Positions 5,597 to 17,972 of a stretch of DNA of 18,245 nucleotides are shown here, piece after piece. Position numbers and translations under genes: made by a program. Under the pieces are notes generated by a model. That model worked only from the letters and a program-made list of their open reading frames with translations. It did not search any database and was not told the origin of the DNA. Numbering within the stretch: the stretch's first letter is position 1; each line of letters starts with the position of its first letter. This DNA is from Nitrosarchaeum sp. (lineage in GTDB: Archaea; Thermoproteota; Nitrososphaeria; Nitrososphaerales; Nitrosopumilaceae), in NCBI GenBank assembly GCA_013140415.1, contig JABFSW010000029.1:1-18245 (forward strand), read 5' to 3'.

Positions 5597-5645
5597 ACAT
5601 GAAATTACATGATCATTCTTTTAACTGATTAAAAATTTCTAATAA

Positions 5646-8573
5646 TTGAAAATGGTACTTGTGCGTGTAGCAATTTTAGTACTAATTGTGTTTGTAGGTA
5701 TTATTCCAGCAAGTGCTGAAGAAATAGAGATTCCAGAATGGGTAAAAACAACCCTGGTAATGTGGTCAGAAGGAAAAATATCAGATCAAGAATTTGTTAC
5801 GGCCATAGACTACCTAAAGGACAAAGGTATTGTAAAGTTATCATCTGTTAATGACGAAGAAGTTCAAAGACAAATTGATTACCTAAAGGCAAAAAATGAA
5901 GTGATAAGAAAAGAAGTGGAAGATCTTCGTGAGACAAACGAAGAGTATAGAATTTCATTAAAAAGTCAAGAGATCAATAAAGGAAGCACAACATCAATGT
6001 CACAGATGTTAAGCGAATATGAAGCCCTTCAAAAAGAAGTAAAAATACTAAGAGAGACTAACAAACAGTTTGCAAATCAAATCAATTCATGGATGAACAG
6101 TAACCAAATGGAAAATAATGAAGTTTTGGGAAATATAGACAATGAAAATACAATAGTTCAAATTGAATCACATTATGTAAAAAAATTAAATGAGCTAAAA
6201 CAAGAAGCTCAAGATTATAAAAATAAAATTGAAGAGTTACAAAATGAGTCATTATTGTATGAGAAAGATATTCAGTTATTAAAAATAGAAAATGAAAATA
6301 AAAATGATGCATTAAAGTCACTCAGAAGTGAAAATCAAGCAAGCAGAGATGATGTAAAACAATTAATTCAGGGAAACGAATCTTATGACAATCTAATTAC
6401 AACCATTCGCACAGAAAATTTGGAACAGAAAAAGAAACTGACAGAATATGAAAATACAATAAAAACATTCGATTCTAATTTTGGTATTTTAAATAAAAAA
6501 CAGTCAAATATGAAAGAGGAAATTTTGTCACTTAAACAAGAAAATTCGAAATATCAAGATATAATGAACAACATAGAAGGATTGAATCAGGAACAGAAAA
6601 ATATACTAGTTGCAAGCACAAAAGAACTAGAAGAGACAAACAAAAATCTCAGCATGCTAACGCAAAAAATTCAAAATTATGAAAGTTCCATTCTCTCTTT
6701 AGAAGCAAAAAATAAGGAATACCAAGGTAAAATCACTCAAAATGAGGTTGAAAAGTTGGGATATAAGGAACGAATCAACCAGCTTGAAGCAAAAAATTCA
6801 GAGCAACGAAAAAGCCTTGTCAATCTAACAAAGGAGTTTCATGAATCAGGTGAGCTTGCAATGTCAGTAAATTCAGAATTAACCACCTACAAAAATATCA
6901 TAAAGACATTAGAAAATGAAAATAAACAATACAAATCAAAAATTACAGAATTGGAAAACACAAATCATGAAAAAGACTCATCAATAATTTCATTAAATAA
7001 AGATCATGATGTACTAAATGATTTGATGAAAGACCTAAATTCCAAAATTAGTACATATGAAAATACCATTAAAGTTTTAGAAAATAAAAATAAAAACGAA
7101 CAAAGCTCAATTACAGATGCACAAATACAAATTGATGAATTAGATAAAAACTCAGGTACACTGAAATCTAAGATCATAGATTATGAAAATCAAATAAAGA
7201 AGTTACAGGTTGAAAATAAAGATAATAAAAATTCACTCAAATCAGTTACCAATGAAATGAGTGGAAATTACAACCTCATAAAAGAATTAAATCAAGAAAA
7301 AGAAGATTATGAAAAAAGACTTGAAGTATTAAAGAAAGAAAATAAAATTCTTAGCAACCAAGTTCAACTAGTAGAAAATCAAAATACAGATAAAGAATCA
7401 GGTCTAACTAAAATTTCATTAGAAAATGGAAAGTTAAAAAAACAAATTGATTCACTCCAATTAGAGATAAAACAGAAACACCAAGAAATTAATTCCTTAA
7501 AAAATACGCAGCTGGAAAAAGAATCTGTCAAAACATACGTAATTCAGCCCCCAGAATTACCTACGTTACAATATGATGACCATCAAGAGAAACTAGATAT
7601 AAAAAAACAGAGCGACAAATATTTGGTAGAAGTGAATTACCTCAAGGCAAAGAACATAGTTATTGATGAAGAAATTGAGACGCTGAGGGCAGAAAATGAA
7701 GAATATAGAATATTGATCAATTTACTAAAAAAAGGTGAAAAATCACAGACAGGAATTGCAAGTGCAAATCATGACAATATTAGTTCTAATCAAGGAAGTG
7801 TTGTTATGTACAAAACAGTAGATGAAGTAAAACAAATTCCTAAGGACTGGGTTAATAAAATTGATTCAACTAAAAAATATTCAATTTATGTTGAACCAAT
7901 ACCAAAATGGTCGTCAGATGTAAGTGGTGAAGTGAATGGCGCCATGAAATTCTGGAAAGATACAGCAAGTGTTAATTTTAATGTGGTAAATACACCAGAT
8001 ACAGACACTGTAATTATTAGCTGGAAAAAAACACTTCCAAATAACTATGACGGATACACCACAAATCAAAAACAAGTAGATGTAGCACTTGGAAGCTATG
8101 GTTGTGATAAGAATTGGAGAGCATATGATTCAAAATCAGTTAGAGATATTTTGATTCATGAGCTAGGACACATCTTGAATCTTGGACACGCTGTAGACAA
8201 AAGTAACATAATGTATCCAATGATTTATAGTGCAAAGTTTGTACCTGTGGATACAACAATTACCATAGATACAAAAGATTCTGCTTTTATCAAAACATGT
8301 TCTTTTAGCGCTGATCCCTCATACAAATATGTAGTAAAAGCACAGGATACAACTAAAAAGTTTGATTTATTTTTTGTTCCATCTAATGCAGAAAAACAAA
8401 TGTTTGATGCAGGTAAGAAATTTGACTATTATTCAGACATCAATTGTATTGGATTAGGCAAATCAGTACAAAGTGGAACATGCAAAAACGTAGTAGACAC
8501 AGGAGGGTTATTAATAATAAATTCTGAAAATAATGAAAAGATCACCGTAACCGTACACATCGAAGAAAAATAG
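5646..8573 (+). CDS. Secreted long coiled-coil protein with C-terminal metzincin (matrixin-like) protease domain
   Basis: This 975-residue protein starts at TTG 5646, or possibly ATG 5652, which keeps the signal peptide. A Sec signal peptide (residues 4-24, ending PASA) is followed by a short module with IPEWVKTTLVMWSEGKIS, DQEFV and IDYLKDKGIV (29-62), a type I associate with thaumarchaeal exported proteins. Residues from about 75 to 700 are Lys/Glu/Asn-rich heptads predicting a very long coiled coil. The catalytic part (about 730-865) has HELGHILNLGH (His838, Glu839, His842, His848) and a Met-turn SNIMYPM (Met856), the zinc site of M10-type metzincins. The usual Gly between the second and third His is Asn845. 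A Cys-containing C-terminal domain of about 100 residues follows, with no transmembrane anchor. It probably acts outside the membrane on a stalk or fibre. The substrate is unknown. tatA follows by 43 nt. Confidence 0.85.
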   Translation: MKMVLVRVAILVLIVFVGIIPASAEEIEIPEWVKTTLVMWSEGKISDQEFVTAIDYLKDKGIVKLSSVNDEEVQRQIDYLKAKNEVIRKEVEDLRETNEEYRISLKSQEINKGSTTSMSQMLSEYEALQKEVKILRETNKQFANQINSWMNSNQMENNEVLGNIDNENTIVQIESHYVKKLNELKQEAQDYKNKIEELQNESLLYEKDIQLLKIENENKNDALKSLRSENQASRDDVKQLIQGNESYDNLITTIRTENLEQKKKLTEYENTIKTFDSNFGILNKKQSNMKEEILSLKQENSKYQDIMNNIEGLNQEQKNILVASTKELEETNKNLSMLTQKIQNYESSILSLEAKNKEYQGKITQNEVEKLGYKERINQLEAKNSEQRKSLVNLTKEFHESGELAMSVNSELTTYKNIIKTLENENKQYKSKITELENTNHEKDSSIISLNKDHDVLNDLMKDLNSKISTYENTIKVLENKNKNEQSSITDAQIQIDELDKNSGTLKSKIIDYENQIKKLQVENKDNKNSLKSVTNEMSGNYNLIKELNQEKEDYEKRLEVLKKENKILSNQVQLVENQNTDKESGLTKISLENGKLKKQIDSLQLEIKQKHQEINSLKNTQLEKESVKTYVIQPPELPTLQYDDHQEKLDIKKQSDKYLVEVNYLKAKNIVIDEEIETLRAENEEYRILINLLKKGEKSQTGIASANHDNISSNQGSVVMYKTVDEVKQIPKDWVNKIDSTKKYSIYVEPIPKWSSDVSGEVNGAMKFWKDTASVNFNVVNTPDTDTVIISWKKTLPNNYDGYTTNQKQVDVALGSYGCDKNWRAYDSKSVRDILIHELGHILNLGHAVDKSNIMYPMIYSAKFVPVDTTITIDTKDSAFIKTCSFSADPSYKYVVKAQDTTKKFDLFFVPSNAEKQMFDAGKKFDYYSDINCIGLGKSVQSGTCKNVVDTGGLLIINSENNEKITVTVHIEEK
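5880..5954 (+). repeat. First copy of a duplicated coiled-coil module in the metzincin gene
   Basis: It encodes residues 79-103, beginning YLKAKNEVIRKEVEDLR and ending NEEYRI. The same pattern with identical spacing recurs at residues 665-689, so the two copies bracket the long coil. Many synonymous differences show this is not a recent duplication. Confidence 0.7.
7638..7712 (+). repeat. Second copy of the duplicated coiled-coil module
   Basis: It encodes residues 665-689, beginning YLKAKNIVIDEEIETLR and ending NEEYRI, and matches the copy at 5880-5954. It lies just before the linker to the protease domain. Confidence 0.7.
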
Positions 8574-8616
8574 CCTCAAACATTACGTTTAATTTCAAAT
8601 AAAGCCATTTTATGCT

Positions 8617-15061: not shown

Positions 15062-15176
15062 GCCGGGGTAGCTCAGCCTGGTTAGAGTGCCAGTTAATTG
15101 GTAAACTCTACCGGTTCTTCCAAAAAAGGCAATACTCATAATCTGGAGGTCGTGGGTTCGAAACCCATCCCCGGCA
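15062..15176 (+). tRNA. Elongator tRNA-Met (anticodon CAT) with a 40-nt intron
   Basis: The acceptor stem pairs GCCGGGG (15062-15068) with CCCCGGC (15169-15175); the discriminator is A15176 and no CCA is encoded. The D stem is GCTC/GAGT, and the T arm is GTGGG-TTCGAAA-CCCAT. After removing 15094-15133 the anticodon arm becomes CCAGA-CTCATAA-TCTGG with U33, and the anticodon CAT at 15137-15139. The mature RNA is 75 nt. The G-C first pair and the body favour elongator Met over the initiator (A-U first pair in archaea) and over tRNA-Ile2. Exons are 15062-15093 and 15134-15176. Confidence 0.93.
15094..15133 (+). other. Archaeal tRNA intron at non-canonical position 30/31
   Basis: A bulge-helix-bulge can be drawn at the exon junctions. 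The 4-bp helix is TGCC (15088-15091) with GGCA (15128-15131). The 3-nt bulges are AGT (15092-15094) and ATA (15132-15134), each cut between its second and third nucleotide. The outer helix is GAG (15085-15087) with CTC (15135-15137). A hairpin GGTA-AACTC-TACC (15100-15112) lies inside the intron. This is the substrate shape of the archaeal splicing endonuclease. Confidence 0.85.
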
Positions 15177-16757: not shown

Positions 16758-17972
16758 TTGGCGATTTTATGCGAATTGGGAGAATTTGAAGAATTTGCAG
16801 AGGCATTATTTGGACAATTAACTGTAGAAATCAATGAGGAAAAAGAGATTGCCAAACTAGCAGACAGGGCAAGAGATGATCCTTCATTTAAAGTGAAATT
16901 TGAAGGATTAGAAAAAATAGCTCAAGAAGTCTTCCCATTACTAAAGAAAAAAGTTGAGGAATTTTTAGGAGTTAAAATCGCAGATAACTTGAAGATAGAG
17001 TTTCCGGATCTTACAGAATTAAAAAAATTAAAAGGGGAAAAAGTATTTTCAGATGAGAAATCAAAAGAGTACGTAAGAGAGTTATTTGATGCAGTTGCAA
17101 ATGAAGATCAAAAGAAAATTGCAGAACTAATGAAAAGAAATACTGCAAAATATCTTGTATACTCAACATATGCCATTCAGTACATCTCAAAGATTTCAAC
17201 TACTTATGGAGATTATTTGGATTCTGTAATTTATCTAAATAAATTTGTGCTTTCCAGATACCCTCAAATTATTTTGCACAAACAAGGAGAGCCATATGAA
17301 TCGAGATTTGCAAATGTCAATTCAGGTTATTTAGGAGCAGTAAAGATGACTGTTTTAGAAGAACAAATTCATTCATCACAAGAGAAACTACAGCAATTAA
17401 ACAAAAATGCGGCAACACAGGTCAATTTGATTAATGAGGAACTAGCAGGAATAATTCTAGAATTAGATAATCAAACAGTAAATAATCTTTCAGAATATTT
17501 ACAGCTTCAAGCTGTTCCAGATGACTTTCCATTTGCAAAAAAAGCAAACCTGTTTTTCTTCTTGAATCCAGATCATTTCTTAATTGAGCAAATAGGTCCA
17601 GATGTGATGACTTTCACACATGTGGAAATAGATCCTAAAATTTCAGATGCAATTCCACAGTTATTAGATATTTACAAAAAATGGCTAATTCCAATTCAAC
17701 AACATCATGCAGCTTTTACAATAATGGAGGGAATGGCAGGATTTGCCATAGAAAACATACTAAAAGAGGATAAAGATTTTCAAAATTATCTAGCCACCTT
17801 TATGGGCACAGATTTCTCATCATATCAGATTAGAAAAAACATGGGAAGAGACTTTACAAAAAATATCTATGAAAAATTAGGAAAAAATGCATTCAAAAAG
17901 CTAATGGAAACCCCACCTAATACAAGAGAAATAAAAGAGCCACAATTATACCTGAATAGGATAAAACAATAA
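16758..17972 (+). CDS. Conserved-looking hypothetical protein with EExxH and EGMAGF motifs
   Basis: This 404-residue soluble protein begins at TTG 16758; no in-frame ATG lies near. A GAGG at 16733-16736 precedes an out-of-frame ATG at 16741 instead, so the start is less certain than for other genes. I do not recognise the family. The first 130 residues are helical and charged. The middle contains TVLEEQIHSSQEK (Glu201, Glu202, His205) and LINEELAGI, and residues 316-329 read HHAAFTIMEGMAGF. The EExxH...EGxAGF order recalls gluzincin metallopeptidases (HExxH...EGxAxY) but with Glu in place of the first His, so activity is doubtful. There is no signal peptide. The SirB1-like gene starts 3 nt after its stop, so the two are probably one operon. 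Confidence 0.75.
   Translation: MAILCELGEFEEFAEALFGQLTVEINEEKEIAKLADRARDDPSFKVKFEGLEKIAQEVFPLLKKKVEEFLGVKIADNLKIEFPDLTELKKLKGEKVFSDEKSKEYVRELFDAVANEDQKKIAELMKRNTAKYLVYSTYAIQYISKISTTYGDYLDSVIYLNKFVLSRYPQIILHKQGEPYESRFANVNSGYLGAVKMTVLEEQIHSSQEKLQQLNKNAATQVNLINEELAGIILELDNQTVNNLSEYLQLQAVPDDFPFAKKANLFFFLNPDHFLIEQIGPDVMTFTHVEIDPKISDAIPQLLDIYKKWLIPIQQHHAAFTIMEGMAGFAIENILKEDKDFQNYLATFMGTDFSSYQIRKNMGRDFTKNIYEKLGKNAFKKLMETPPNTREIKEPQLYLNRIKQ

Follow-up and report, generated by a model that had tools for sequence, protein, structure and literature searches.

A long coiled coil carrying a matrixin-type protease domain in Nitrosarchaeum and related archaea

The coil-protease gene and its parts

The stretch of DNA discussed here (the window) is an 18,245-nucleotide contig of Nitrosarchaeum sp. 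(JABFSW010000029.1, assembly GCA_013140415.1) from a genome of 1.21 Mb that is 84.5% complete. Our subject is a gene on its plus strand, at 5646..8573, whose reading frame is free of stops over 975 residues and specifies, in this order, a signal-like N-terminus, a module here called WSEG, a long coiled coil, a matrixin-type metzincin and a Cys-bearing C-terminal domain (all features described below are on the same strand). The listed first codon is TTG, but an ATG at 5652 (residue 3) suits the orthologues better, giving a probable product of 973 amino acids. Two relatives from metagenome-assembled genomes of Nitrosarchaeum are 98% and 89% identical.

This architecture had been proposed in a sequence-only reading of the window, and is borne out by the open reading frame, by profile matches and by orthologues. 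The idea that the protease is really a separate gene, joined to the coil by a fusion artefact, was considered and rejected: coil and protease occupy a single open reading frame in all 15 rows of an alignment of long-coil forms (the window protein with 14 relatives, of which two are truncated at the edge of a contig), 11 of the 14 relatives carry the whole order of parts (of the remaining three, L093 and L102 are the truncated ones, and L095, as read, has no signal peptide and an incomplete WSEG that is missing its first residues), and the gene is under purifying selection, as judged by the substitution ratios given below. Relatives without a coil (L105 and L106) also exist.

The N-terminus (5652..5717; residues 3–24) has by eye the look of a Sec-type signal peptide: it is hydrophobic (peak of 3.26 in a crude hydropathy test) and is closed by an AXA-type site (GIIPASA) just before EE. 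The WSEG module (5724..5843; residues 27–66), a predicted helical hairpin, is followed by the first coil segments (5853..6098; residues 70–151, with the unit YLKAKN..LRETNEEYR), a break or linker (6099..6161; residues 152–172), the main coiled coil (6162..7517; residues 173–624), a Pro-containing break (7518..7586; residues 625–647, including QPPELP) and a terminal coil (7587..7730; residues 648–695) in which the first coil unit recurs (as YLKAKN..LRAENEEYR).

The protease domain (7851..8285; residues 736–880) matched Pfam Peptidase_M10 (PF00413) over residues 742–862 with an E value of 2.4e-9 and a score of 37.7 bits, the cut-off being 24. PF00413 was matched by all 17 rows of an alignment of such heads at E <= 0.01, and by profile similarity the nearest solved structures are karilysin (8b2q, 2xs3) and other matrixins. 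The zinc-binding motif HELGHILNLGH (8157..8189; residues 838–848) has all its ligands intact, with Asn at the usual Gly position of HExxHxxGxxH, and beyond it lies the Met-turn SNIMYP (8202..8219; residues 853–858). The three His residues, the Glu and the Met-turn Met are conserved in 14/14 long forms and 17/17 rows of the head alignment, in which the Met-turn Tyr is also invariant. The predicted C-terminal metzincin was thus upheld by profile, zinc motif and Met-turn. Although these are features common to matrixins (PF00413, M10), the window protein differs from them in its Gly-to-Asn replacement, in the domain that follows and in its long coil (other matrixins were not systematically searched for one). 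Other matrixin-type genes of the Nitrosopumilaceae belong to the same protease family, and WSEG or the C-terminal domain is found in a number of them as well, but none of those read has a long coil; by eye, we take their other arrangements to include a different N-terminal region (L108), a TPR-like region (L126) and a PEFG-type tail (L113).

What had been described as a Cys-containing tail does contain Cys, but is better regarded as a separate domain of about 95 residues (8286..8570; residues 881–975). It holds three (Cys 885, 934 and 946) of the four Cys residues that are invariant in the 17-row alignment, Cys 820 being in the protease. No Pfam or PDB relative of this domain was found (best PDB profile match E 0.14). 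Strands dominate it in an AlphaFold2 model of the head plus this domain, which was of low confidence (mean predicted local distance difference test score, pLDDT, 40.6).

Eight relatives of 262–283 amino acids (L116, L118, L119, L120, L122, L123, L124 at G000:C167, and L127) are without HExxH and group together in the tree described below; of the five read, four have HEIEY and L127 has NNIEF. This lineage, which occurs in the source genome too, is probably a conserved pseudoprotease. A viral origin was rejected: a scan of viral contigs yielded 24 loci, among which the best match covered 53 residues round the zinc motif and the widest extended over 141, with 26% identity.

Register and length of the coiled coil

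Residues 70–625 contain neither Pro nor Cys, and their hydrophobic pattern has a power of 48.8 at a period of 3.50, compared with a best value of 7.5 in 200 shuffles; the hydrophobic excess at positions a and d is 0.553, as against 0.264 +- 0.019 (maximum 0.314) in 300 shuffles. When segments between residues 173 and 607 were sampled every 14 residues, the best register was identical in 31/32, the exception starting at residue 299. The heptads are interrupted by the breaks near 152–172 and 625–647, so that the coil had been rightly seen as long, but the figure of about 620 residues of heptads was slightly generous (about 580 lie in coil segments). Continuity had also been in question: the register proves continuous bar these local breaks, and the structure models are too poor to decide the matter. 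One of them, a low-confidence AlphaFold2 model of the whole protein from three near-identical sequences (mean pLDDT 48), has helices at 31–41, 47–59, 70–111, 118–151, 167–624 (with four short breaks) and 648–695. The power over the longest Pro-free stretch is 45.7–52.5 in the four Nitrosarchaeum forms, and because these values are the highest, it is in this genus that the unbroken register is clearest.

In parallel dimeric coiled coils, position a is typically occupied by Ile or Asn and position d by Leu, with charged residues at e and g. Position a of the main coil is 34% Ile, 23% Asn and 17% Leu, position d is 39% Leu and 21% Tyr, and e and g are mostly charged and rich in Glu and Lys, a composition typical of a parallel dimer, which is the oligomeric state that we would expect. 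A unit, YLKAKNxVxxEExxxLRxxNEEYR (repeat family D3), is present at both ends of the coil, and in the relative L104 four similar units form (by eye) a shorter stalk, which suggests that the coil has grown by duplication.

Two kinds of coil invite comparison. Heptad composition is shared with cytosolic coils of the SMC/Rad50 type, but the window protein differs from these in having no ATPase match, in its signal-like N-terminus and in its avoidance of NxS/T (see below); membership in that group was rejected, the best SMC match (E 2.8e-17) scoring 61.8 bits against a cut-off of 567. The tetrabrachion of Staphylothermus marinus is a secreted coiled-coil S-layer stalk of about 70 nm that carries a protease, STABLE (PMC5744192), so the earlier statement that no archaeal system with this arrangement was known to have been described has to be amended: the principle is similar, although the parts are different. 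Tetrabrachion has four chains, a right-handed undecad coil and large beta arms that form the S-layer, and STABLE is a separate subtilisin bound part-way along the stalk (PMC5744192), whereas the window protein has heptads, no arms, and a terminal metzincin that belongs to the coil polypeptide itself. With a power of 0.35 at the undecad period of 3.667, compared with 48.8 at 3.50, and with the metzincin in the same reading frame, it is not a member of the tetrabrachion/STABLE system; its architecture is new, and made of parts of known kinds.

It had been asked whether orthologues keep the length of the coil. In 12/12 uncut long forms, landmarks at residues 181 and 467 of the window protein are separated by 286 coil residues with zero insertions or deletions, even though those outside the genus are only 43–46% identical to the window protein (tblastn). 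Between landmarks 548 and 608 there are 60 residues in all 14 rows having both ends. The main coil as a whole (181–608) measures 427 residues in the four Nitrosarchaeum rows, and among the eight other uncut rows 470 in six, 467 in L098 and 464 in L095, so that the main coil of the 12 uncut forms comes in two sizes, 427 and about 470 residues. Two flanking linkers vary among them (48–54 and 48–56 residues), and a third, 124–181, is nearly constant (55–57). Such constancy is suggestive of a selected length, without amounting to proof. The coil-less relatives L105 and L106 have a signal-like N-terminus, WSEG (identified by eye in L106), a short linker, the protease and the C-terminal domain. Since they keep the order without the coil, the coil behaves as an optional part separating module and enzyme, and this is our main ground for regarding it as a stalk and not as a rod that binds partners.

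A possible surface stalk

A further indication of the location of the coil may come from N-glycosylation sequons. In 12 protease-protein coils (L090 and L098, as near-copies, and the cut L093 were left out, and L103, which is not a long form, was included), NxS/T occurs 47 times compared with 100.6 expected in a heptad-aware shuffle (0.47), whereas the mirror motif S/TxN occurs 105 times compared with 101.5 (1.03). Twelve SMC-type coils of the genus have 71 NxS/T compared with 75.9 expected (0.94), and S/TxN at 1.09 of expectation. (The comparison set used 18 of 24 loci, with coil limits set from recall; we write ‘SMC-type’ because the genes score under the curated SMC cut-off, which was exceeded in none of 25 genomes.) The NxS/T deficit is strongest in the stalk protein, and fits an extracellular coil that needs to stay free of sugars. 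Together with the signal-like N-terminus, it makes secretion of the stalk protein likely. It might be supposed that the single hydrophobic N-terminal helix is not cleaved off but stays in the membrane as the anchor, WSEG serving some other purpose. The AXA-type site ahead of WSEG speaks against this, as does the faster evolution of the signal region (dN/dS of 0.49 in comparison with L091 and 0.86 with L092, over 23 codons, none of them changed in comparison with L090), which is as expected of a peptide that is removed; we consider such an anchor very unlikely.

The distribution of WSEG bears on how the protein might be held. A model of 40 columns built from ten modules matched residues ~27–66 of the window protein with an E value of 2.1e-23 (the ten rows include the window copy itself), and found, at E <= 0.001, 25 copies on 14 proteins of the source genome. 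Among the 61 genomes examined, WSEG occurs in 37/37 of the family (3 to 49 copies each, many of them in tandem pairs with a spacing of about 50 residues) and in none of the 24 that belong to other families of the order. In 11/14 carriers of the source genome it is at the C-terminus (<=19 residues from the end, and reaching the last residue in seven), and in two (the window protein and one on C47) it comes directly after a signal-like N-terminus; in the carrier on C50, whose frame is interrupted by a stop close to where the contig ends, it was judged to be internal from the relative L126. All eight carriers with a readable N-terminus start with a hydrophobic stretch in the crude hydropathy test (five carriers are contig-cut). 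When the ten modules were compared with Pfam, allowing E values of up to 10 (most matches above 0.1 being removed by filters), neither SLH nor any other matching model was found, the best match of any module having E 0.019, and SHOCT appearing for one of the ten at 0.17. The two helices of the low-confidence model (31–41 and 47–59) fall in this module.

Because of its terminal position, we infer that WSEG may be a retention or docking module. The C-terminus of the window protein (KITVTVHIEEK) has neither a PEFG motif nor a transmembrane helix, as judged by sequence; the relative L113 ends, by eye, in a PEFG motif plus a hydrophobic helix. In another relative (L109, 3686–5953), the protease comes first and two WSEG modules are C-terminal, the reverse of the order in the window protein. 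It could be argued from the unadorned C-terminus, from the two modules of L109 at the opposite end from the protease, and from the fact that no function is known for WSEG, that this is instead a pairing or cargo-binding module of a protein that is shed as a diffusible fibrous protease. We regard this as distinctly unlikely, the location of WSEG at or near the C-terminus in 11 of the 14 carriers being that to be expected of a retention tag.

From the computed order of parts, register, conservation of length in the 12 uncut forms, zinc ligands, selection and patchy distribution, we infer that a secreted, probably dimeric stalk held by its N-terminus presents the metzincin about 65–85 nm away, a proposal about which our own confidence is evenly poised. 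The protein would be exported by Sec and the signal peptide removed, leaving WSEG as the mature N-terminus, which would hold the protein at the cell envelope. Two chains would pair in parallel along the heptads (Ile/Asn at a, Leu/Tyr at d) to form a rod; with a helix rise in coiled coils of 0.1485 nm per residue, this would be about 66 nm long for the single-register part, and up to about 85 nm with all coil segments in line, in keeping with the original suggestion that the protease lies tens of nanometres from the N-terminal end. Pointing outwards, the metzincin and its Cys-bearing domain at the far end would be outside the S-layer, and could cut proteins at a roughly fixed reach. If so, ammonia oxidisers, commonly regarded as simple autotrophs, include some that bear a surface protease on a stalk of largely kept length.

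Several observations weigh against this proposal. The L095 reading frame, as read, starts beyond the signal peptide and the beginning of WSEG. The contig-cut long form L102 has 14 fewer residues between 181 and 380 (and a main coil of 381 in total), and the coil of L103 (725 amino acids) is shorter still; because of these departures the group as a whole does not have a constant coil length. Few insertions or deletions would be expected in any case, because they break the register. The register is itself weaker outside the genus, where the power at 3.50 is 6.6–27.7 for the eight uncut long forms, 1.6 for L102 and 5.0 for L103. Both AlphaFold2 runs were of low confidence (mean pLDDT 48 and 41). 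The sequon counts come from related sequences and so are not independent; NxS/T is also somewhat low (20 compared with 25.0 expected, 0.80) in six SMC-type coils from other families, where S/TxN is at 1.16. DxS/T and QxS/T stand at 0.60 and 0.84 of expectation in the protease-protein coils, although these last two deficits look general to coils, because they are seen also in the genus SMC-type coils (0.51 and 0.64). Finally, the Gly of the zinc motif is replaced in 4/14 long forms (by Asn in the window protein and L090, Ser in L091 and Ala in L095), which could weaken the enzyme. This replacement, and the loss of HExxH from a related lineage that shares the C-terminal domain, might even suggest that the protein is an adhesin rather than an enzyme, its stalk serving to display a head for binding in which the metzincin is inactive or weak. 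That seems improbable in the extreme, given that every long form and every row of the head alignment retains all three His together with the Glu and the Met-turn Met.

A bolder version of the stalk proposal is that WSEG is a general surface-retention module of the Nitrosopumilaceae (a counterpart of SLH), and that through it the window protein holds a dimeric coil acting as a ruler, its length selected, with an active metzincin placed at a fixed distance beyond the S-layer. We think this rather doubtful, its chances being lowered by the failure of L102 and L103 to keep the coil length. If it were true, an autotroph would gain a tethered protease with which to reach out, and WSEG, being terminal on many secreted proteins of the family, might point to a rule for surface retention in these archaea.

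Distribution, selection and neighbouring genes

A PF00413 match is present in 218/250 genomes of the family, but heads near to that of the window (E <= 1e-20) in only 32/250, and the long-coil form in 14/250 (12 uncut and two contig-cut). Among 250 genomes drawn evenly from the order, 66 have weaker relatives (E <= 1e-8), two of these genomes being outside the family. In a tree of 35 of the 41 rows (L115, L121, L125, L126, L128 and L129 were left out by hand as partial or distant), the 14 long forms make up one clade with support 98/89, adjoined by the shorter-stalked L104; a single origin of the stalk is not established, because L103 branches below stalk-less forms.

This distribution bears on another role, in which the coil would run within or beside the pseudoperiplasm or S-layer, its protease serving to mature or renew S-layer and other secreted proteins, as has been proposed for STABLE. 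Matrixin-type genes are common in the family (218/250), and STABLE has been suggested to help in processing the tetrabrachion precursor (PMC5744192). However, a form found in only 14 of the 250 genomes is not one that a general envelope task requires. Moreover, 65–85 nm seems long for the space beneath the S-layer, and such a maintenance role is unlikely. Matrixin genes have been noted in sponge-associated Nitrosopumilus, and arCOG04994 is mentioned for sponge symbionts, in PMC6697440, and S-layer context for Nitrosopumilus is given in PMC11153153. No account of this protein was found in open-access titles and the starts of abstracts (many subscription papers lie outside this scope), or in passages of PMC6593220, PMC8889253 and PMC12153357.

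The ratio of nonsynonymous to synonymous substitution (dN/dS) for the whole protein is 0.13, 0.22 and 0.26 in comparisons with the congeners L090, L091 and L092, respectively. Values are low all along the protein, those for WSEG (0.00, 0.04, 0.17) and for the C-terminal domain (0.05, 0.09, 0.18) being among the smallest.

Within the genus, the coil-protease gene is present in 4/18 genomes, where it is sited between an MFS gene and tatA. The latter was found in 15/18 genomes, and MFS and tatA genes are adjacent in 11/11 of these that are without the coil gene. The interval between the two genes (window 5597–8616; L171–L181) is variable: in these 11 sister genomes it is 44–511 nucleotides, and in five of them it contains a minus-strand gene that we take to be PII-like. 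The tatA leader stretch, which in the window starts four nucleotides after the coil-gene stop, is kept in 11/11 sisters. In L102, from another genus, the coil-protease gene adjoins tatA too; for nine other copies (L093–L101), no window neighbour was found within the flanking stretches fetched. The position of tatA downstream was rejected as evidence of a functional link, since all 11 sisters keep MFS–tatA and the leader stretch without the coil gene, and the stretches fetched around L093–L101 show no shared neighbours. A conserved upstream block suggests that the coil-protease gene has its own promoter.

Two other features of the window may be mentioned. Rfam finds a tRNA of 115 nucleotides at 15062–15176, missed by ARAGORN, which possibly contains an intron, and an open reading frame of 404 amino acids at 16758–17969 has no Pfam or NCBIfam match at cut-off.

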